Shown here piece by piece: positions 24,946 to 42,909 of a stretch of 64,000 nt of DNA (positions within the stretch are counted from its first letter, which is position 1; the number at the start of each line of letters is the position of its first letter). The notes under the pieces were generated by a model, which saw only the letters and a program-made list of their open reading frames with translations, did not search any database and was not told the DNA's origin. The DNA is from a virus, in the IMG/VR virus record IMGVR_UViG_3300031963_008656, positions 150,936 to 214,935 of that record; one strand, 5' to 3'. Made by a program: the position numbers and the translations under genes.

Positions 24946-25875
24946 ATGACCAGTCAAATCAACCCTAACAACATCGACGGAAACTATCCAGTAGCCGGCG
25001 TTCCCAACAACACACAAGGGTTTCGGGACAATTTCACAAACACTAGCACTAATTTTCAATATGCAGCAGACGAAATAACTGCACTGCAAACCAACGCAGT
25101 TTTTAAATCTGCACTAACTGGTGCTACACTTGACAACAACATGAATGACAATCTCATTTATGCTGTAAAATTGCAAGATGTCAGCTATACCTATGTGCCA
25201 ATTACCACAACTTCTGGCTCAGTCAGCGTGGACTATTCTGCAGGACAATATCAATACGTCAGCACAACTGGCAGTATCAGTTTAAACTTTAGCAATTTTC
25301 CCACCAGCGGCAGTGCTGGTATAGTACAGCTGGCCATCAACATCACCAATACAGCTTACACTGTTACATTGCCGGCTGCTGTGACTTTGGGCATTGTAGG
25401 CATTCAAGGCATTAGTTCAAATGTGATCACATTTGCCGCCACAGGAACTTATCAGTTTCAATTTACCACTACAGACGGCGGCACCACCGTAACTGTTTAC
25501 GATCTAAATCGCCCATTGCTGGGCAGCGCAGAATCTGCTGTGGGATACAGCACCGGTACTGGCGGCACTGTCACACAGGCCACCAGTAAATCAACTGGTG
25601 TAACACTCAACAAACGCTGTGGACAAATCACCATGAACAATGCTGCGTTGTCGGCAGCGGCTGAAGTGAGTTTTACTTTTACCAACAGCACTATTGCAGC
25701 CACTGATGTGGTTGTTACTGCTATCAGTTCAGGTGCCACAGCTGGCGCCTACAACACTCACGTTGATGCAATTGCCGCAGGCAGTTGTAGAATTAGTATA
25801 ACCAATTTTTCAGCTGGTCCCCTGTCTGAAGCCATAGTACTAAACTTTGTTGTGATCAAAGCGGTAAACGCTTAA
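24946..25875 (+). CDS. Putative tail fibre/virion protein (309 aa)
   Basis: Plus-strand late gene. MTSQINPNNIDGNYPVAG at the start is typical of T4-like virion proteins; the body is Thr/Ser/Asn-rich beta structure. The C-terminal region from about residue 215 (STGVTLNKRCGQITMNN, then CRISITNFSAG) resembles end domains seen in several phage tail proteins. The start was chosen at 24946 because AAGGAT lies upstream and a late box precedes it; the frame extends 72 codons further without support. It ends 4 nt into the helicase gene. Confidence 0.72.
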   Translation: MTSQINPNNIDGNYPVAGVPNNTQGFRDNFTNTSTNFQYAADEITALQTNAVFKSALTGATLDNNMNDNLIYAVKLQDVSYTYVPITTTSGSVSVDYSAGQYQYVSTTGSISLNFSNFPTSGSAGIVQLAINITNTAYTVTLPAAVTLGIVGIQGISSNVITFAATGTYQFQFTTTDGGTTVTVYDLNRPLLGSAESAVGYSTGTGGTVTQATSKSTGVTLNKRCGQITMNNAALSAAAEVSFTFTNSTIAATDVVVTAISSGATAGAYNTHVDAIAAGSCRISITNFSAGPLSEAIVLNFVVIKAVNA

Positions 25876-27314
25876 TTACTTTTGATCTGTCCCAGCAGTT
25901 GTTTTAGTTTTGAACTTTGAACATCTGCTGTTACTTTAGGCCCCTGCTCCCATGCAGGGGTTCCTGTGGGTCGGTCCCATTTTGATGGCGAGCTTTCTTC
26001 TGGGGCGTCAGCAGCCTTGACCTGGCTGCGGGCCTTGATTGAATCCATAATGGAACTTTGTGGTTTGTTGTATCCTGTTCCCTCGTCTCCACCTTCATCA
26101 GTAATGCGCATGGTTTCAATGTTGTACTCCAAATCAATCTTTTGACCAACGCCGGTCGAGCTTCGAGACTTCATACACTGGATTTGATACTTGCCACGTT
26201 CTTTCATTGCACGACTTGTAAAGATACCAAACACATTATCTGCTGTGTTAATTTTAGAGATACCACCTGATATGTGTGAGTGATCAAATTCAATTTCTTC
26301 CACAGCTGATCTATTCAACTGCGACGCTGTGACCATCAAGATGCCTAGCTCTTTGGCCAAGTTGCGCAGTTCTTCTGAAACATACTTGTCTTTCACAAAC
26401 AAGTCATTGGGGCTGACCTTTGCACTCACAGGCATCAGCAAGTCTAAATAGTCAATCATCACAAAGTCTACCCGCTTGCCTGTTTGAATTTGATACTCTT
26501 TCAAATAAGCACGGATGTCGTTGATATTGCTTTGTGCTGGCAAGCCTTTCACTTGATAGTTGCCTGACTTCTTGGATACCAGCTTGACCTTAAGTTCAGT
26601 GGTGTCTATGTCCTTGCGGATATCTTTTGTTGACATATTGGTCAACATAGCATCAGTACGCAATGACGTAAGTTCTTCTGAAAGTTCTAGTGTAATATAC
26701 ACACCACTAAGTCCTTGCTGTAGCCAGTTTAGAGCAATGTTCATCATCACAAGTGATTTGCCTGATCCGGATCCACCTGCAAAGATGTTGAGTTCGCCTC
26801 TTGAGAATCCACCATACAACAATCTATCCAGTTGTGGCCAACCTGTGCTTACTTGTCCACCCGAGTTGAAGTACTTCTCAATACGACTCTTAGGATCAGC
26901 AAAGTAGTCTGTGCCCATGTCCTTGGTAAGTGATATCTGTACTGCATCTTTGATGAGTTTTTCAACTGGATCATACTCGCCTTTTTCCAGTAAGTCTGCG
27001 GCTTTTAAGATAGCACGTTCTAGTTCTTGACGTCGAGTAAATGCTTCAAACTCGCCCATGAACCAATCAAAGTGCCCTTCGTTTAAATCCGGCACGGCTG
27101 CTAATTTAACGCCAGTGGTTGCAGAAATCTGTGTACGTTCCGGCAGGGTCTTGTGTTTGTCTGAGTGTTCTTTAATAAACTCAGCCGCAGGTCTCAAACT
27201 CTTGTCAAAGTTCTGCGGGTTGTAGATGTTTTGAACACGCACATAACTCTGTGCGTCCTCCAACATCATTTCTAGAAATAGTCGTTGGACATCAAGTCCG
27301 TATTCTTTTAACAA
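25872..27314 (-). CDS. Replicative DNA helicase (T4 gp41/DnaB-like)
   Basis: Unwinds the fork ahead of the polymerase. 480 aa with N-terminal helical domain, Walker A GGSGSGKSL (about 186-194), Walker B area VDFVMIDYLDLL, and SQLNRSAV (motif H3-like). The C-terminus is a low-complexity Pro/Ser segment with QSSKLKQLL. It is transcribed with the SGNH-like and primase genes, so helicase and primase are expressed together as in T4. Confidence 0.93.
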   Translation of the reverse strand: MLKEYGLDVQRLFLEMMLEDAQSYVRVQNIYNPQNFDKSLRPAAEFIKEHSDKHKTLPERTQISATTGVKLAAVPDLNEGHFDWFMGEFEAFTRRQELERAILKAADLLEKGEYDPVEKLIKDAVQISLTKDMGTDYFADPKSRIEKYFNSGGQVSTGWPQLDRLLYGGFSRGELNIFAGGSGSGKSLVMMNIALNWLQQGLSGVYITLELSEELTSLRTDAMLTNMSTKDIRKDIDTTELKVKLVSKKSGNYQVKGLPAQSNINDIRAYLKEYQIQTGKRVDFVMIDYLDLLMPVSAKVSPNDLFVKDKYVSEELRNLAKELGILMVTASQLNRSAVEEIEFDHSHISGGISKINTADNVFGIFTSRAMKERGKYQIQCMKSRSSTGVGQKIDLEYNIETMRITDEGGDEGTGYNKPQSSIMDSIKARSQVKAADAPEESSPSKWDRPTGTPAWEQGPKVTADVQSSKLKQLLGQIKSN

Positions 27315-28021
27315 AGTTTGTCCTTTACGCTTGTTTCAAAAAAATGTCGGTTGCCAGCAGGTCCGTGGTGCCCGTGCCAACCAAAATTGTCATAGTCTGC
27401 CGGCCGATTGATATTTAAGTTGACATCATACATGGAGCCATCAAACAATTTACATCTGTTGTGATTTACACAATAATCTAGTATGTATTGGCTTGGTCCC
27501 CAGTGATTGTTTGGATCTAAATTTTTACTGAGATTTACAATAATGTAGTTAGCGTCGCAAGAATCCAACCACTGAGTTATTAAAAATATTTGTCGTAGCA
27601 CCTGAGTTTCAATCCAACTACGATCACTGATCAACACCGACAATCGATCAAGTTCCTTGTACTGCAAATTTACCAATCCATGATGACTTGCAACATTACT
27701 GGGTTGTGCCTGCCAGGTTTTTGTATCAAATACGGAACTTACCAACGCTGTGTCTTTGTAATCGTCAAATATAGTAATTCTTTCTAATGGTGGCAGACCA
27801 ATGACAAAAAAGTCTTGCTCAAAGTTGTATCTTTGCTGTTCACCTATTAGCATTTGACACACACTGTCAAAACTTATTTTAGATCTGCTACAGTTAATCA
27901 CAGTACCAACACCCAACTCAGAAGCAGTTAGCCCCCAAAAACTTTCTTGTGGGGAAACACAAACATCTGGTGTGCTATAACTGTCGCCAAACACCCAAAG
28001 CCTATTGTATTTTTTTAACAA
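27308..28021 (-). CDS. SGNH/GDSL-like protein (237 aa)
   Basis: Begins with WVFGDSYS (about 9-16) holding the block I Ser, Asn/Gly positions are weaker, and a C-terminal HGHHG (about 221-225) may hold the catalytic His. Start is TTG at 28021, supported by AAGGAA 9 nt before it. One of five such genes in the window. Hydrolase activity (esterase or acyl removal) is expected from the family, substrate unknown. It lies between primase and helicase. Confidence 0.65.
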   Translation of the reverse strand: MLKKYNRLWVFGDSYSTPDVCVSPQESFWGLTASELGVGTVINCSRSKISFDSVCQMLIGEQQRYNFEQDFFVIGLPPLERITIFDDYKDTALVSSVFDTKTWQAQPSNVASHHGLVNLQYKELDRLSVLISDRSWIETQVLRQIFLITQWLDSCDANYIIVNLSKNLDPNNHWGPSQYILDYCVNHNRCKLFDGSMYDVNLNINRPADYDNFGWHGHHGPAGNRHFFETSVKDKLC

Positions 28022-28985
28022 GTTGTCGTTTCCTTATCTCTATTTTGATTTTACTAGTTTCTCTGGCTGCCATTATAGTTAGCAAGGTGCCCACACGCCC
28101 CATGGCAATCACAGCATTATTGACATCTTTGCAGCCTTTGGGCCAGTCGGGTATACTTACCGCCCATCCCAGTTCCACAGCACGATCTACCAGTTCTACA
28201 CCTGCTAGGTCTTGATCAGGCACCACAGTTATGTCTCGACCCAGATTGCGTATCAGTCGGGCCTGTGCATCACTCACTGTGTTGTGCATCACAGCCACAC
28301 CACCAATACTCAATGCATCAAATATGCCTTCTGTCACTATCACATTGGTCCAGTCTTTGTGCTGTAAATCTGTGCCAAACACATAACCTGGTTGGCTGTC
28401 TGAAATAAACTTGGGTTGACGGTTGTCTAAAAATCTACAAGTGTATCCTACAATTTTATTTTCGTATGTAAACGGAATCACCACATGTGGGCGTGTCCAA
28501 TGAATACCATCATTCTCTATCTGTACCATAGCAGGAAAATCTTCAGGCACATGTCTACCACGCACATAATCCCAATATGGCCCATGTTCGGGCATCAACA
28601 ACTCAGCATGTGGTGGCAGGTCTCGTTCTTCAAATGTGAAGCCAGCTAGTTGATTCCAGGCCTGTTGTCTATCTTCTAGTATGCCATGTATGCTACGATG
28701 CCGCAGACTTTCCAAATTGAGCATTTCAATTTCGTTGTCTGGCACACCCATCCATCCTAGTAGTCTGCGAGCTTTAACACTTAGGGTCCGACCCATAATA
28801 AAACTGGCTGTATAGGCGCAATTGAAACAGTGATAACTCCATCCTGCTTCAATAGCTTTGAGCCCAGCCCGACCTCTTGTGTCTCTGGTGCTGCCATTGT
28901 GCTGACAGCAAACCGCATTGAAACTCAACCAACCAGATGGTGTGGGTTTTCTTTTTGCAGGTAGATACGCAAGGATGTCAAGCAT
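28002..28985 (-). CDS. DNA primase (T4 gp61-like)
   Basis: Makes RNA primers for lagging-strand synthesis. The zinc finger includes CCQHNGSTRDTRG and WSYHCFNCAY; the TOPRIM glutamate motif is VIVTEGIFDALSIGG, then DQDLAGVELVD. 327 aa. The ATG at 28985 sits 6 nt after the -10 box with no ribosome-binding site, so its mRNA is probably leaderless. It pairs with the gp41-like helicase two genes downstream. Confidence 0.9.
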   Translation of the reverse strand: MLDILAYLPAKRKPTPSGWLSFNAVCCQHNGSTRDTRGRAGLKAIEAGWSYHCFNCAYTASFIMGRTLSVKARRLLGWMGVPDNEIEMLNLESLRHRSIHGILEDRQQAWNQLAGFTFEERDLPPHAELLMPEHGPYWDYVRGRHVPEDFPAMVQIENDGIHWTRPHVVIPFTYENKIVGYTCRFLDNRQPKFISDSQPGYVFGTDLQHKDWTNVIVTEGIFDALSIGGVAVMHNTVSDAQARLIRNLGRDITVVPDQDLAGVELVDRAVELGWAVSIPDWPKGCKDVNNAVIAMGRVGTLLTIMAARETSKIKIEIRKRQLVKKIQ

Positions 28986-30105: not shown

Positions 30106-30113
30106 TATTTATG
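30106..30113 (-). promoter_or_regulatory. Late promoter box for 29017-30090
   Basis: CATAAATA, 15 nt before the start at 30090. It overlaps the start codon of the plus-strand gene at 30111. Confidence 0.65.
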
Positions 30114-30488
30114 GGCAATACAATCTTCGATAAGCTGGCAGAAAAATACCCGTTTATTACTCTTTGCAGTTATGCAAACGCAGAATACGTGGGCATTATA
30201 CAAAACAGAGATGACAGCGTGACTACCATCTACGACTTTGGATCTGTAGTTGACCAACAAGACAAAATGTTGTTTTTAGAACTGGCCAATCAGTGGTGGT
30301 GGGAAAGCAATAGATCCATCCCCATCAACATATTCCTTCGCCAAGATTGGGACAAATTTAGATTTACGTTGCGCACATTTTCCAACAAAGATCTTGAAGT
30401 TTTACACGGTCCAGTGTGCAGTTTGATGGACATTGCTCGCAAGAAAAGCAAGCGAAAATCAATCACACTTGTGCGGCGTCTTGATTGA
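30111..30488 (+). CDS. Hypothetical protein (125 aa)
   Basis: Plus-strand single gene beginning MGNTIFDKLAEKYPFI. Trp-rich middle (ANQWWWESNRSIP) and a basic Lys-rich end. A weak AGGAT lies 15 nt upstream. It ends 26 nt inside the convergent DnaE-like gene. Function unknown. Confidence 0.55.
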   Translation: MGNTIFDKLAEKYPFITLCSYANAEYVGIIQNRDDSVTTIYDFGSVVDQQDKMLFLELANQWWWESNRSIPINIFLRQDWDKFRFTLRTFSNKDLEVLHGPVCSLMDIARKKSKRKSITLVRRLD

Positions 30489-31041
30489 GTAGATTCATGT
30501 GTAGTGCGACCAAAGCCGCGTAACTTATACTGTGCGACTTTTTGAATGTGTAACCTTTAGAATCATCTCCGTTCCACACTTCGGCAAACACTTCTGTCCA
30601 CGGGCGATTTTGTAAGTGTGCTTTGCCCGGGCGAATAACTGAGATAAACGCTGCCATTCTGGGTATTGAATCTGGCCGCATTGACAGCATCAAGTCTGTG
30701 TAATTGCCCACATGAACCAACTGACTAGCCCAAGCAGTATCAGTCCACAGTCTCTGCCATGGTGGCACGGCTGCCAACATTTCAGCATAGTGTGCAGGGT
30801 CACGAATCAACTGATACACACTCATGTTCAACAGATCTATCTTGAAGTATCCACGCTGTTCTGCTGACTCATAGTCTATGGCTGCACAGCCATTGGGTAT
30901 GTCTCTAGGAATGTCTGTGACATAGATGCCTGAATTGTGTTTACGCACTTGACCTTGATGCAGTTGCCGTGCGGCAGTGTGCTGGATTAATTTCAGCACA
31001 GCCGTTCTATCCGGCACATCAATGTCAATGTCTGCGCTCAT
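30463..31041 (-). CDS. Miniature DnaE-like protein (192 aa)
   Basis: Compact protein carrying, in family order, motifs of bacterial Pol III alpha: DIDIDVPDR (4-11, matching PDFDVDF with the two catalytic Asps), KHNSGIYVTD (34-43), GYFKIDLLNM (64-73, third Asp at 69), DLMLSMRPDS and ISVIRPGK (116-140), and FKKSHSISYAAL (166-177, matching FNKSHSAAYAL). PHP, fingers bulk, HhH, beta- and tau-binding parts are absent. It might be a minimal polymerase, a primase-like factor or a binding relic. It follows the endonuclease VII gene, overlapping by 17 nt. No such protein is known to me. Confidence 0.7.
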   Translation of the reverse strand: MSADIDIDVPDRTAVLKLIQHTAARQLHQGQVRKHNSGIYVTDIPRDIPNGCAAIDYESAEQRGYFKIDLLNMSVYQLIRDPAHYAEMLAAVPPWQRLWTDTAWASQLVHVGNYTDLMLSMRPDSIPRMAAFISVIRPGKAHLQNRPWTEVFAEVWNGDDSKGYTFKKSHSISYAALVALHMNLLNQDAAQV

Positions 31042-31441
31042 AAGTTTCCAAGTATTGTACAGCAGATTGCAGTCTTTGTAAATTGTCAGCGAAGTTTCCT
31101 AGCCCTAAATTGCATTTATGACACAACCAATTTCTAAATTCGCCAGTAATATGATCATGGTCTGCACACCATACTGTTTTCTTTTTTACACTGTATCCGT
31201 GTGCTTCTTCTTCATTGCGATTGCATATAGGACATCGATAATTTAATGGCACTGCCGGAGCTGTTTTTTTTAATTTTGCAACCAATTTACTTTGAGCTCT
31301 TGCGCATTCTTTGCATTCATATCTTCTATATTTGGCACCGCCATCAAATCCAAAACATCCAATAGGTTTTTCGTTACGGCACATCCCACAAATTTTTGTT
31401 TGTGTGTTAGCACCTTCAAATAACTTTTGAAAATTATTCAC
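31025..31441 (-). CDS. Recombination endonuclease VII (T4 gp49-like)
   Basis: Resolves Holliday junctions and branches before packaging. It has an N-terminal zinc-type pair (CGMCRN ... CKECAR), then the HNH core: CPICNR, WCADHDHITGEFRNWLCHKC, with NLGLGNFADN after it. 138 aa. Overlaps the DnaE-like gene by 17 nt and the next upstream gene by 4. The fold is confident, the enzyme assignment slightly less so because HNH homing enzymes look alike. Confidence 0.9.
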   Translation of the reverse strand: MNNFQKLFEGANTQTKICGMCRNEKPIGCFGFDGGAKYRRYECKECARAQSKLVAKLKKTAPAVPLNYRCPICNRNEEEAHGYSVKKKTVWCADHDHITGEFRNWLCHKCNLGLGNFADNLQRLQSAVQYLETYERRH

Positions 31442-32163: not shown

Positions 32164-32835
32164 TCACCAACCTGCCTTGCTTAATATATCTTTTGCGTAT
32201 TCTTGATCAGCTGGATAGTTGTGAAACTTTTTTTGCCACACATCTGAGTCAATGTAGGGCCATACCATGCTGATTTGATCAGGAGAGAGTTCACCCAAGA
32301 ACTGTTGTCCTGACTCTGAATTGTAAATTACCCAAGGTGATATCCTACCTGTTGTGACTGCATAGCACATGGCCGGTGTGCTGCCATATCGCAAACAGTC
32401 CTGTGGCTGTGCTGAATTTTTCTCTGCCCAGTCCATGCCAAACTCTACAGCTCGTGCTAGAGCATCTGCCACATTCTCTAATGGCAAGTATTGTATGAGA
32501 TATTCTGTGTACAGTTGATCACTTGCCCAACGATCGATCTTTTTGTTGTTTTTCAACAGCCACTCAAGAAACTGTTTGGGATTGATAGTTCTTGTGCTCA
32601 CACAATAGCGTCCAAACTTCACAAACGCACGATAGTAAGGCGAGTCAGCAAAGTCGTCAAATGTCTTGAGCCGAGCCGAACCTTGGCTCATTTCATAAAA
32701 GCGTATGTAGGCTTGAAAACCCAGTTCCACACCACGCTCCGCTCGTTCCTGTCTGCGCCGTTTGGGTTCACACACATGCACTGCCAAAGAAGTTTCTTTG
32801 ATAAAATCTTTCTTGCAGTACTGACACTGGGTCAT
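32164..32835 (-). CDS. Conserved phage protein with zinc-finger N-terminus (223 aa)
   Basis: N-terminus holds CQYCKKDFIKETSLAVHVC (C2HC-type metal site), then a charged region and a helical body. The ATG at 32835 makes an ATGA overlap with the SGNH gene stop, favouring it over the 9-codon longer start. Possible nucleic-acid or protein-binding early factor; no family function known to me. Confidence 0.6.
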   Translation of the reverse strand: MTQCQYCKKDFIKETSLAVHVCEPKRRRQERAERGVELGFQAYIRFYEMSQGSARLKTFDDFADSPYYRAFVKFGRYCVSTRTINPKQFLEWLLKNNKKIDRWASDQLYTEYLIQYLPLENVADALARAVEFGMDWAEKNSAQPQDCLRYGSTPAMCYAVTTGRISPWVIYNSESGQQFLGELSPDQISMVWPYIDSDVWQKKFHNYPADQEYAKDILSKAGW

Positions 32836-33554
32836 TTTAGTAGATTGTTGTTGTTGATCCATGCAGTCAAAAACATGTTTAGTTCTTGATGAAATCCTGG
32901 TTGCCGATGTGCTATTTCTGGAGGCACATACTGAAGAGCTCCTGGACCATAATCTGTTGCTGGAACTCCTCGTTCATGTTGCCATGGTATGGCACGCCAC
33001 TTGTATCCTTCAACTATTTCAGGTTCACTGTGAAACAATTTTAGTCTTGGTGAATCTAAATAAGATTCATATAAATTATCAGCCTGCTGGAAAACTATCA
33101 CAGCATGGCCTCTAGATTTTAAACTGTGTATCATAGCAAGTATACGATACATGAGATCTTCTGCACGATCCAGTATGCTATTCAATTCCCATTTGAGTTT
33201 GAGTTCAATCATTGCATCAGTATCTGCTTGTGTCCAGGGAGCATCCCATCGCGAACTCCAGCTTTGATTTTGAAAATTAGTCCATCGACCTTCAAAATCA
33301 CTGCTGGCTTGCAAAATTGGCAATTCTTCTCTGCTGACAAATGTCATTCCCAACACATACAACGTGGGCTGTAGCGTGATGTAACTGTGCTTGAGCGTGG
33401 TTCGAATAATACGCGAATTGGCGCTGCCCCCAATGGCCAAACTTATGGCCTGGGGAATTGACAATCGTTCTGCTAATTCTTGATGGCCAAATCCGCTGGC
33501 ATAGCTCTCCATGTAACTACACCCATTAACCACCAGCTGTTGATATTTCATCAT
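32832..33554 (-). CDS. SGNH-like protein (240 aa)
   Basis: Starts with VVNGCSYMESYASG, the likely nucleophile block. The C-terminal HRQPGFHQELNMF may provide His. It shares the size and overall layout of the other SGNH-like genes here. Hydrolase activity on an acyl or sugar ester is a family-level expectation only. It is part of the replication operon. Confidence 0.5.
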   Translation of the reverse strand: MMKYQQLVVNGCSYMESYASGFGHQELAERLSIPQAISLAIGGSANSRIIRTTLKHSYITLQPTLYVLGMTFVSREELPILQASSDFEGRWTNFQNQSWSSRWDAPWTQADTDAMIELKLKWELNSILDRAEDLMYRILAMIHSLKSRGHAVIVFQQADNLYESYLDSPRLKLFHSEPEIVEGYKWRAIPWQHERGVPATDYGPGALQYVPPEIAHRQPGFHQELNMFLTAWINNNNLLK

Positions 33555-34963: not shown

Positions 34964-35537
34964 GTTTTTTCATGATCACACCACAATCTAAAGTTTGGTG
35001 TACCACAGTCCATCCCAGCGACTGCAAATAAACCACTGCTGGACCGCACTTGCCAATCCAACAGTCGTTTACGCAATAGGTATCGTCAAATGCTACCACA
35101 GCATCGGGACTCAACAAGGGTGTTAATGCAACCATTTGCCGCATGTGCTCAATTTGACAATGTTGATTGCTCATTACAATTCCTTGTCCAGCATAGTCAT
35201 GCATTTGTTGGCGGATGGCTGCACTCACACTATCAATATCCCAGATGTAATCAAAGTTATCCAAATATAACACAGCAATGTCGGTGTGGGTATTAGCAAA
35301 TTCTCTAGCCCAGACAGATCCAGATGCCACAACAAAGTCAGTGTTTGATAACGTGTGAGACAATCTACTCTGCGCTTTGCTGGAAATGTCCACAGTGATC
35401 AAACGAGTGTTGTGTTGTTGAGCCACTTCAGCCAGAGTTTGAGTACTCCCTTCTCCACGGTCGCTGCCAATTTCCACAAACACTCCACGTGGAGTTTGCG
35501 GCAGAAAGTTATTGATGTCTTTGTATATTTTGCCCAT
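34947..35537 (-). CDS. SAM-dependent methyltransferase-like protein (196 aa)
   Basis: Class I fold: VFVEIGSDRGEGS (about 19-31) is the SAM-binding turn, followed by LITVDIS and an acidic/Asp-rich VLYLDNFDYIWD. Resembles methyltransferases of the group 24 type. It starts within the last 29 nt of the SGNH-like gene. Target unknown; glycan or small-molecule modification is possible. Confidence 0.65.
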   Translation of the reverse strand: MGKIYKDINNFLPQTPRGVFVEIGSDRGEGSTQTLAEVAQQHNTRLITVDISSKAQSRLSHTLSNTDFVVASGSVWAREFANTHTDIAVLYLDNFDYIWDIDSVSAAIRQQMHDYAGQGIVMSNQHCQIEHMRQMVALTPLLSPDAVVAFDDTYCVNDCWIGKCGPAVVYLQSLGWTVVHQTLDCGVIMKKLDNVN

Positions 35538-36210
35538 GTATTATTTGGTGTATGTTGTTGGCAACTGTTTGCTGAGTTGCACGATCCGTGTGAAACGGTG
35601 TGTCGACGTTGGGATTGTTGCCACTGAAATCATAAGCGACTTTTCCCACATTATCATTGTTGAAAAAAACAGGCAGTACACCTGCATCCAAGATCTTGTT
35701 GTGCCAAAATTCAAACAACCATCCATCAATGGTGTCTTGAAAATTGTAGTTCATAAAATACTTCATGTACAGGTCAACAGCAACAAGTTGTTCTTTGGTA
35801 AAATCAAAAAATGGACTGTTTTCTAAATTCTGCCACACAGTGGAAAAAATTGCAGCCTTGCTATCGCCCACATGCGGCGAACCAGTGCTGGGCATGTGCG
35901 GATTAGAATAGATAAAATTCTTTAGGCCTTGAGACGGCTCAAAGTTGTCATGCATGGACAAGTTTATTCTGCTGGCCCATGTGCGATTGTAGACCACAAC
36001 ATCAGCTCCAAGCTCAAGGGCTTTTTGCATTTGAAAAAATATTCCAGCATTGCTAAATCCGCCATGCGCTAGATGGATAACTTGATAGCCATATTGGTCT
36101 TCAAGCATCTGACTAAAATGCGCTCGCAGTCCCACCTCTTTGAGATCAACAGTTGATGCAGTACAAAAACTGTCTCCGCACACTGCAACAGTTATTTTAT
36201 TTTCATCCAT
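35509..36210 (-). CDS. SGNH-like protein (233 aa)
   Basis: Begins VAVCGDSFCTAST (block I Ser). Contains HLAHGGFSNAG (block with Gly) and C-terminal FHTDRATQQTVANNI, giving candidate Asp and His. Similar in layout to the 59585-60187 gene (ICGDSFCV). Overlaps uvsW by 19 nt. A phage glycan or lipid esterase is an inference. Confidence 0.6.
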   Translation of the reverse strand: MDENKITVAVCGDSFCTASTVDLKEVGLRAHFSQMLEDQYGYQVIHLAHGGFSNAGIFFQMQKALELGADVVVYNRTWASRINLSMHDNFEPSQGLKNFIYSNPHMPSTGSPHVGDSKAAIFSTVWQNLENSPFFDFTKEQLVAVDLYMKYFMNYNFQDTIDGWLFEFWHNKILDAGVLPVFFNNDNVGKVAYDFSGNNPNVDTPFHTDRATQQTVANNIHQIIHGQNIQRHQ

Positions 36211-41327: not shown

Positions 41328-41780
41328 TTAAGCTGATGTTGGGTCAAAAGGTAAAGAACTCAAATCAGCATCAAATGTTACTGTTTGTCCATCCAAGATA
41401 GCTAGGCTTCCGGTGCCCATAGTACCGCCACCGCCTACATGACCTGTTATATCATATGGGCCAAGTTCACCGTCCCATAATGGATTGCTTACAATCTGAA
41501 AATTACCAGGTTCGTACCCGCATATCAGTAGGTCATTATTGGTGACTGCTATGGTAAATTTTAGCAAGGTACCAAAATCCTTTGTTGGAAGATCTACAAC
41601 AACATCTACACTGTCATCAGTGGTGGATCCAGCCACCCAATTCAGTGTTGGAGGCACTGTTTTCTGGTACGTTGACACATGCTCGAACGCTGGGTTTTCT
41701 ACGGTGATTGTTATTTCAGCTGGTCGTAAATTTGAAATTTTTGAAGTTTTTCGTGCATGACATTTGAACGTTAGTTCCAT
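41328..41780 (-). CDS. Putative virion protein (150 aa)
   Basis: Beta-rich Thr/Gly protein (begins MELTFKCHARKTSKISNL; end with GHVGGGGTMGTGSLAILD). AGGAG precedes the ATG and a late box lies 21 nt upstream, so it is likely expressed late and structural. It ends 2 nt from the convergent plus-strand gene. Confidence 0.6.
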   Translation of the reverse strand: MELTFKCHARKTSKISNLRPAEITITVENPAFEHVSTYQKTVPPTLNWVAGSTTDDSVDVVVDLPTKDFGTLLKFTIAVTNNDLLICGYEPGNFQIVSNPLWDGELGPYDITGHVGGGGTMGTGSLAILDGQTVTFDADLSSLPFDPTSA

Positions 41781-41790
41781 TTATTTTCTC

Positions 41791-42909
41791 CTACTGTCGT
41801 TTATTTATTTTGTTAATCCAATCAACAAGTACCTGTTTGTTGTGTTGGCAGATAACTTGGGAACCTTGATACAATTTGAGTTTTTGCGCCGTTGACAGTA
41901 GGGCCACACTTTTAATTGTGGAAAACATGGCACTAAACCGTTCTGGGCCGCTTAGATTGTCATAACCTTCATCCCAAAGTGTGTTAAACGTTTGGAATCC
42001 AAGATTTTGCATGCCTTTAAGAAATCCTGGGGCAGCATACACAAACTGAGGTTTTTCAGCTACCAGAGTGCGCACAGTTTTTTCGCTAGGCGTAAAGGTA
42101 AATCCTTCAGTCATGGTTTCAAAAGTTATTTCAAACAGATACTGATTTCTAAAACTCAACACACTATCAATCAATGTTGCATTGCGATTTTCACCAACAA
42201 CATTTTTAATATACTGATCTCCTACACATACACCATCAACGCTGTTTATTGGCGGGTGTTTCATCCAATCAAGCACAGCATCTAGATCTGGCACAATATC
42301 TGGTTGTTTCCAACGACCTATGTGATCATAGTATCGTTCAAGTCGCAGCCAGTTTGGACGATGAGCAGGTGCTGTTTCTTGCATGAGGCTCACTATGCAA
42401 TCATTTTTTGTTTCAGGCATGTGAGTCAAGTGCCATAGGCCTAACATTCTTACAGTGGTTTTACGACCCACAAATAATGCCCAAGTTTTTAAATTCTCAA
42501 GATCCAATTCTGCTGATGGCACAAGGTACTCTTGAGCACGATATATTTCATCAGTGATTTCACTGAAACCATTGTAAAACAAGTTGACCCAAGGATGATC
42601 TTGTGTCATGTTGTTTGGAGTAAACACAAATATCTTTGAGTCGTCTCGTCCTTGTTGCGCAATCAATTGTTCAATACAGTTTCTTAGTCCGCTGGCAGAA
42701 AAACTCAATCCTTCAAATCTAACATGCACTACCACATAGTGATCCAATGGTACTTCTACAAAATTTTTAACAAATTCATACTGGCTTTCCCAGTAGTCTG
42801 AGCCCACATGCACATATACAACTGACAGTGGCAGTTGATTGTTGTCCGGCAACTGCAAGTACCGGTTGATCAATCTATTCATTTGAAAGTGGTTGAAATC
42901 TTCAGTCAT
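41791..42909 (-). CDS. Putative glycosyltransferase-like protein (372 aa)
   Basis: C-terminal half has TFTPSEKTVRTLVAEKPQFV and LGFQTFNTLWDEGYDNLSG, a pattern also in the 60184-61176 gene (GFETFGNLWDESYD) and in phage/bacterial glycosyltransferase-like proteins. N-terminal half has VVYVHVGSDYWESQYEFV. It lies in a glycan gene cluster, ATGA-coupled to the radical SAM gene. Activity inferred from context and motif, not certain. Confidence 0.55.
   Translation of the reverse strand: MTEDFNHFQMNRLINRYLQLPDNNQLPLSVVYVHVGSDYWESQYEFVKNFVEVPLDHYVVVHVRFEGLSFSASGLRNCIEQLIAQQGRDDSKIFVFTPNNMTQDHPWVNLFYNGFSEITDEIYRAQEYLVPSAELDLENLKTWALFVGRKTTVRMLGLWHLTHMPETKNDCIVSLMQETAPAHRPNWLRLERYYDHIGRWKQPDIVPDLDAVLDWMKHPPINSVDGVCVGDQYIKNVVGENRNATLIDSVLSFRNQYLFEITFETMTEGFTFTPSEKTVRTLVAEKPQFVYAAPGFLKGMQNLGFQTFNTLWDEGYDNLSGPERFSAMFSTIKSVALLSTAQKLKLYQGSQVICQHNKQVLVDWINKINKRQ
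41802..41809 (-). promoter_or_regulatory. Late promoter box for 41328-41780
   Basis: AATAAATA, 21 nt before the start, inside the end of the upstream gene. Confidence 0.6.

Follow-up and report, generated by a model that had tools for sequence, protein, structure and literature searches.

A 192-residue viral protein as the C-terminal half of a probable split, minimal DnaE-type polymerase

Gene content of the locus

The window analyzed here is a stretch of 64,000 nucleotides (positions 150,936 to 214,935) from the IMG/VR virus record IMGVR_UViG_3300031963_008656, which holds 214,935 bases in all. On its minus strand, positions 30463 to 31041 encode a protein of 192 aa belonging to PHROG_11778, the C-piece of a split minimal DNA polymerase III alpha (Pol III alpha). 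The open reading frame is real, extending from an ATG at 31041-31039 to a stop at 30465-30463, with the C-piece at 181413-181973, minus, in record coordinates. The DnaE-type motifs quoted for this protein in a preliminary description of the sequence are all present in its minus-strand translation. As that description also held, the gene follows one encoding endonuclease VII (31025..31441, minus; PF02945, 4.7e-14), the end of which overlaps it by 17 bp. Further on, the same strand encodes a Toprim DNA primase (28002..28985, minus) and a DnaB-like helicase (25872..27314, minus), which together provide the T4-type helicase and primase setting of group 2. By eye, three open reading frames of the window (27308-28021, 32832-33554, and 35509-36210, all minus) open with the motifs GDSYS, GCSYM, or GDSFC and resemble SGNH-hydrolase-like paralogues.

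The 3' end of the C-piece gene is overlapped by 26 bp by a convergent gene (30111..30488, plus) for a 125-aa protein of PHROG_11637, a family of unknown function, that bears a basic C-terminal tail. A convergent PHROG_11637 homologue lies within 700 bp of the C-piece gene in 162 of 175 C-piece loci, redundant loci included, and went undetected in the other 13. Its product could be a candidate partner or third component of the C-piece, or the gene could exert an antisense-type control. In the phages RaK2, Phosso, Paride, Atu_ph07, SCTP-2, Vibrio 2.275.O, and 121Q, the C-piece gene is likewise followed by a small convergent gene and then by a helicase gene, with a primase gene also after the C-piece where annotated. 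XacN1 has one intervening gene and no annotated primase or helicase beside the C-piece.

Relationship to DnaE

The PHROG_11778 family, labelled 'DNA polymerase', matches residues 3-188 of the C-piece at 1.5e-51 and matched 0 of 14 control genomes. With the single C-piece sequence as query, no match is found in Pfam, NCBIfam, or the PDB. A profile of 13 members, however, aligns with an alignment of five DnaEs at an hhalign probability of 97% (pairwise E 8.8e-11, residues 55-140); a wider profile of 56 members reaches 93% against the same five, and the 13-member profile reaches 11% against the E. coli DnaE sequence alone. Against the PDB, the 13-member profile finds 12 sequences at E values up to 10, of which the first seven are DnaEs (E 0.04-0.18), two more are DnaEs at E 1, and three are unrelated. 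PF17657, the Pfam finger domain, matches 3 of the 13 members and exceeds the cut-off in 2 of 15 records, inside the C-pieces of CM1 and XacN1.

Structure comparison points the same way. The AlphaFold2 model of the C-piece has a pLDDT of 91.5, and the first 13 rows of its Foldseek search are all Pol III (best E 1.0e-3). In VIA-align, residues 1-192 of the model align with E. coli DnaE 399-784, and 15 Pol III or PolC rows score Z 6.2-9.6 over 181-190 aligned residues, with the first unrelated row at Z 3.7. The relationship to DnaE proposed earlier thus holds in family, profile, and model comparisons alike, and a profile search does recover DnaE. By homology the C-piece represents the latter half of the DnaE palm together with a trimmed part of the fingers, and it is almost certainly one half of a split DnaE-type palm.

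Residues retained and lost in the C-piece

Alignment to E. coli DnaE sets D4, D6, and D8 of the C-piece (codons within 31018..31032, minus) against D401, D403, and D405, H35 (30937..30939, minus) against H511, G38 against G514, and K67 and D69 of the K-x-D motif (30835..30843, minus) against K553 and D555. In the later part, R137-P138-G139 matches R639-P640-G641 and K140 stands at P642 (30622..30633, minus), while the finger-helix segment from F166 to Y174 (30520..30546, minus) brings S169, H170, and Y174 to S759, H760, and Y764. The catalytic triad had previously been assigned to Asp6, Asp8, and Asp69; because D401 and D403 align with D4 and D6, and D405 with D8, it is corrected to D4, D6, and D69. 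According to the available part of PMC3919608, D401, D403, and D555 are absolutely conserved across the C family, and D405 is conserved in DnaE and replaced by Asn in PolC. The D405 equivalent of the C-piece, D8, is Asp in 131 of 131 relatives and so is DnaE-like, unlike PolC. H760 has been proposed as a steric gate against ribonucleotides (PMC8485763, available part).

Conservation was assessed over 131 distinct sequences from 208 of 210 C-piece loci and, for the partner protein introduced below (the N-piece), over 88 from 109 of 111 loci, leaving out frames without a stop in the locus or beyond 150-260 aa; start codons were picked by script or by hand. Relatives were collected with two patterns, the DIDID and K-x-H motifs, either of which sufficed, and the viral-contig scan used DIDID within one of six patterns; the named phages with a C-piece were found without patterns. 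Invariant in 131 of 131 distinct C-pieces, some of them selected on motifs since the search patterns contain those motifs, are D4, D6, D8, H35, G38, P45, K67, and D69, as well as W95, A130, I136, R137, P138, K140, and H170. The three catalytic aspartates are therefore conserved in all 131, as expected earlier, and the expectation of a conserved K-S-H motif is borne out in part: its His is invariant (131 of 131), whereas K168 is K in 115, H in 12, and R in 4, and S169 is S in 100, A in 28, P in 2, and G in 1. K140, at the position of E. coli P642, is a new invariant lysine.

Between D8 and H35 the C-piece has 26 residues, compared with 105 in E. coli DnaE (406-510). Judged from this alignment, and with the limits that we presume for the DnaE thumb, the thumb is gone. 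Reduced thumbs also occur in PolC and Thermotogae DnaE3 (PMC3919608, available part), so a small thumb by itself does not exclude synthesis. The C-piece further lacks about 100 finger residues (E. coli ~643-745), before the K-S-H helix, and overall it has lost about half of the DnaE segment to which it corresponds. The missing finger stretch holds YQEQ, R709, K714, and K715, all invariant in the five DnaEs; R709, K714, and K715, like R390, presumably have a role in dNTP binding.

A second protein carrying the other half of the palm

The GRGS motif of the palm is absent from the C-piece and is found in a separate chain, the N-piece, located at 83756-84259 of the record (minus) in a 172-aa reading frame about 97 kb from the C-piece gene. 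PF07733 occurs once in this genome above the cut-off (83759-83968, minus); residues 102-171 of the N-piece match positions 25-94 of its 260 only, and in 12 of 12 records the match ends by position 98. An N-piece profile finds 9 PDB sequences, all DnaE (E 2.6e-5 to 8.3e-4), and reaches 97% against the five DnaEs. The structure model of the N-piece has a pLDDT of 88.9. Its best Foldseek E value is just 0.08, yet the first 12 rows are Pol III, and VIA-align gives 16 Pol III or PolC rows (Z 7.4-11.8, from residue 66 or 81 to 172) before the next row at Z 2.6. Residues 73-172 align with E. coli DnaE ~278-393, so that in E. coli numbering the N model stops at 393 and the C model starts at 399; residues 1-65 are without an assigned match.

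By counted position, R103, E107, G138, G140, R141, G142, S143, L150, E169, and F170 are invariant in 88 of 88 distinct N-pieces. DnaE R390, invariant in the five DnaEs, corresponds to E169, an invariant Glu. In both Paride and RaK2 the N-piece gene has a clamp loader gene in its vicinity; in Phosso the nearby gene encodes an AAA-ATPase. A reading frame that looks GroES-like by eye (locus L082, 875-1273, minus) lies close to the N-piece in the present genome, and a co-chaperonin GroES gene is likewise annotated close to the N-piece of Phosso.

Selection and distribution

Sequence divergence indicates that both chains are under purifying selection. The median dN/dS is 0.095 for C-pieces (maximum 0.575; 841 of 8515 pairs with dS 0.1-1.5) and 0.194 for N-pieces (maximum 0.766; 88 of 3828 pairs), and the codons of the invariant catalytic residues and of GRGS vary synonymously. 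C-piece length spans 182-213 aa among the 131 distinct copies left after the filter of 150-260 aa.

Relatives of the C-piece are encoded by at least 593 viral-contig stretches. In a phage collection, 63 records match the C-piece along 80% or more of its length, and N-piece matches are listed for at least 61 of them; the C-piece occurs without an N-piece among the matches listed in PP728206 (109,507 bp) and OQ508956 (Slicko01). A profile search of 15 records found N in 14, C in 14, and a family B polymerase (PolB) in 12, the records short of one of these being contigs that may be fragments. All three occur together in 9 of the 9 named jumbo phages searched. The PolB of the present genome is marked by PF00136 at 41448-42665 of the record, in a frame of 907 aa. 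An IMG/VR contig of 364 kb carries both pieces at 100% identity and a PolB match with the same coordinates and bit score, and is for these reasons probably the same virus. PHP was found in 0 of 12 records searched, including this record and the 364-kb one, some of which may be fragments. A family A polymerase exceeded the cut-off in 0 of 12, the one match below it (E 0.03) lying in a frame interrupted by stops.

Jumbo phages are those with genomes above 200 kb. Alishewanella phage Slickus01, at 141,644 bp, encodes both pieces (locus L361, 28347-28958 and 39797-40309, ~11 kb apart), so the split pair is not confined to jumbo genomes. In Slickus01 too, a convergent gene overlaps that of the C-piece and a primase/helicase gene lies downstream; PolB is also present. 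The pieces of this phage were compared by eye, outside the sets of 131 and 88. Among bacterial and archaeal contigs, 38 pattern matches yielded 0 confirmed C-piece relatives, and distant copies there are still possible because the patterns came from one sequence. A viral scan with the Phosso N-piece confirmed 0 relatives.

Possible functions of the two chains

The reading that best accounts for these observations is that the C-piece is one of the two chains, the C-terminal one, of a minimal DnaE-type polymerase: neither chain holds a full active site, both are under purifying selection, and they co-occur. By homology and conservation, the three metal-binding aspartates, the lysine of K-x-D, and the finger helix that bears the proposed steric-gate His would come from the C-piece, and the GRGS nucleotide motif from the N-piece. 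Joined, the two chains would form a single palm carrying a reduced finger module, and the pair may then bind Mg2+ and dNTP and extend a DNA 3' end. With thumb and PHP absent, grip on DNA would have to come from a partner protein, or else the enzyme would be distributive. The family B polymerase of the same genome is taken as the main replicase, and the two-chain enzyme may serve beside it as an accessory in gap filling, lagging-strand synthesis, or repair synthesis.

That the two chains form an active nucleotidyltransferase is predicted with good confidence; that this enzyme makes DNA on a template is predicted more guardedly, the evidence leaning modestly in its favor. What speaks most for templated synthesis is the invariant steric-gate His; doubt about it comes mainly from the loss of the thumb and of finger contacts. 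Counted against the two-chain polymerase reading are the loss of the thumb and of finger residues 643-745, the replacement of R390 by Glu, the lack of a listed N-piece in PP728206, and the C-profile E values of 0.04-1 against DnaEs in the PDB. Much of the same evidence would suit an active but non-templated transferase, formed by the two chains, that attaches a single nucleotide or just a few to a DNA end, to RNA, or to protein, for which we take the small Pol-beta-fold nucleotidyltransferases as the family model. Such a reading would explain why the thumb and much of the fingers are missing, why R390 has become Glu, and why the nucleotidyl-transfer core is the part retained. It is nonetheless unlikely, though well within reason, as the genes are located among replication genes and the His and helix proposed to select dNTPs in DnaE (H760; PMC8485763, available part) are kept in 131 of 131 relatives. 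Somewhat less probable still is a three-part, thumb-less nucleotidyl-transfer machine of C-piece, N-piece, and PHROG_11637 protein with a job unlike that of known C-family polymerases, such as handing over primers, or adding to ends, on behalf of the family B replicase; its active site would have been rebuilt through the change of Arg390 to Glu, the new invariant Lys140, and the loss of the finger Arg and Lys residues.

Readings without catalysis, or with catalysis by one chain, fare worse. The pieces might be non-catalytic factors derived from a polymerase, for example decoys that attach to subunits of the host replisome or regulators of the phage replisome, given their likeness to host DnaE and the loss of DNA-gripping domains. 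This is quite improbable, since the metal-binding residues are all invariant in the protein while their codons vary, and the modules for host interaction (PHP, found in 0 of 12 records, and the C-terminal domains) are absent. The preliminary description had raised a stand-alone minimal C-family polymerase as one possibility, and the 192-aa protein does contain all three aspartates and the steric-gate His; the GRGS half of the palm is, however, a second, co-occurring protein encoded ~97 kb away. With half of the active site on that separate chain, a complete polymerase in the C-piece alone was rejected as highly improbable. Decay of a DnaE gene was also rejected: the loss of about half of the DnaE segment is what a relic might display, but the median dN/dS of 0.095, the length of 182-213 aa, and the relatives in at least 593 viral-contig stretches leave it virtually no chance.

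Bacteria replicate their DNA with C-family polymerases, which are otherwise large chains. If the two-chain polymerase reading is true, an enzyme of ~360 residues beside a family B replicase would represent the minimum required for a C-family active site, and two small proteins would allow a test of the ancestral-like minimal Pol III that has been suggested in print.

Comparison with known systems

The preliminary description knew of no account of such a protein; one exists. The available part of Iyer et al. (2021; PMC7824862) describes, for jumbo phages of group 2.2, a minimal Pol III alpha specific to phages; it is made of two proteins with distant genes, stands beside a family B enzyme, and is suggested to aid in the synthesis of one strand or in repair. 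The systems share stand-alone N-terminal nucleotide-binding and C-terminal Mg2+-binding proteins in T4-like large phages, and no difference in kind was found from the available text. Atu_ph07, named there as a 2.2 member (PMC7824862), holds both pieces. The C-piece is thus a case of the split minimal Pol III alpha already published. New beyond the available part of that paper are the residue map, the thumb loss, the Glu at Arg390, the new Lys, the convergent gene, and the occurrence in a non-jumbo phage. No experimental test of the split enzyme was found among the titles and abstract openings listed from a mostly open-access literature.

With E. coli DnaE the split enzyme shares the palm strands bearing D401/D403/D405/D555, GRGS, K553, R639-P640, and the S759-H760 helix. 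In contrast to the single chain of 1160 aa with PHP, thumb, full fingers, and C-terminal modules, it consists of two chains of 172 and 192 aa without any of these. A single DnaE polypeptide is described as comprising PHP, palm, thumb, and fingers (PMC3666897, available part), a layout from which the split enzyme departs in having no PHP, 26 residues in place of the thumb, cut fingers, and a split palm. No residue roles were found in the available part of PMC3656037.

Small Pol-beta-fold nucleotidyltransferases carry a GS motif, a DxD, and a third Asp in one small domain. The split enzyme has the same three elements, but spread over two chains. The rows of the structure comparisons for the N and C models include no small Pol-beta nucleotidyltransferase, which is not evidence against one.

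In the marine jumbo phage cluster PGC_A, 51.9% carry PF07733, the Pfam signature shared with the N-piece (PMC9123017); neither a split nor a C-piece is mentioned in the available part of that paper, and Pfam fails to detect most C-pieces. The available part of the RaK2 paper names PolB as the one polymerase and does not mention ORF124 or ORF162.

Other phage DnaE genes

Blueeyedbeauty, Patience, DAC19, and Mx1 have a single long DnaE gene each. The C-piece profile matches within three of these four long frames (E 5.6e-4, 9.8e-4, and 0.0065) and finds no match in Mx1 or in Thomasclavelia phage TR-TP1. The latter has two genes annotated as DNA polymerase, for 551 and 496 aa, that flank an HNH endonuclease gene (locus L345, 4080-8705), and this pair is perhaps a DnaE split by a homing gene. 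PHROG_7513, PHROG_13169, PHROG_11165, and PHROG_12219, with ~460 and 780-820 positions, each match one DnaE half and perhaps represent further phage DnaEs that are split at about the same position.
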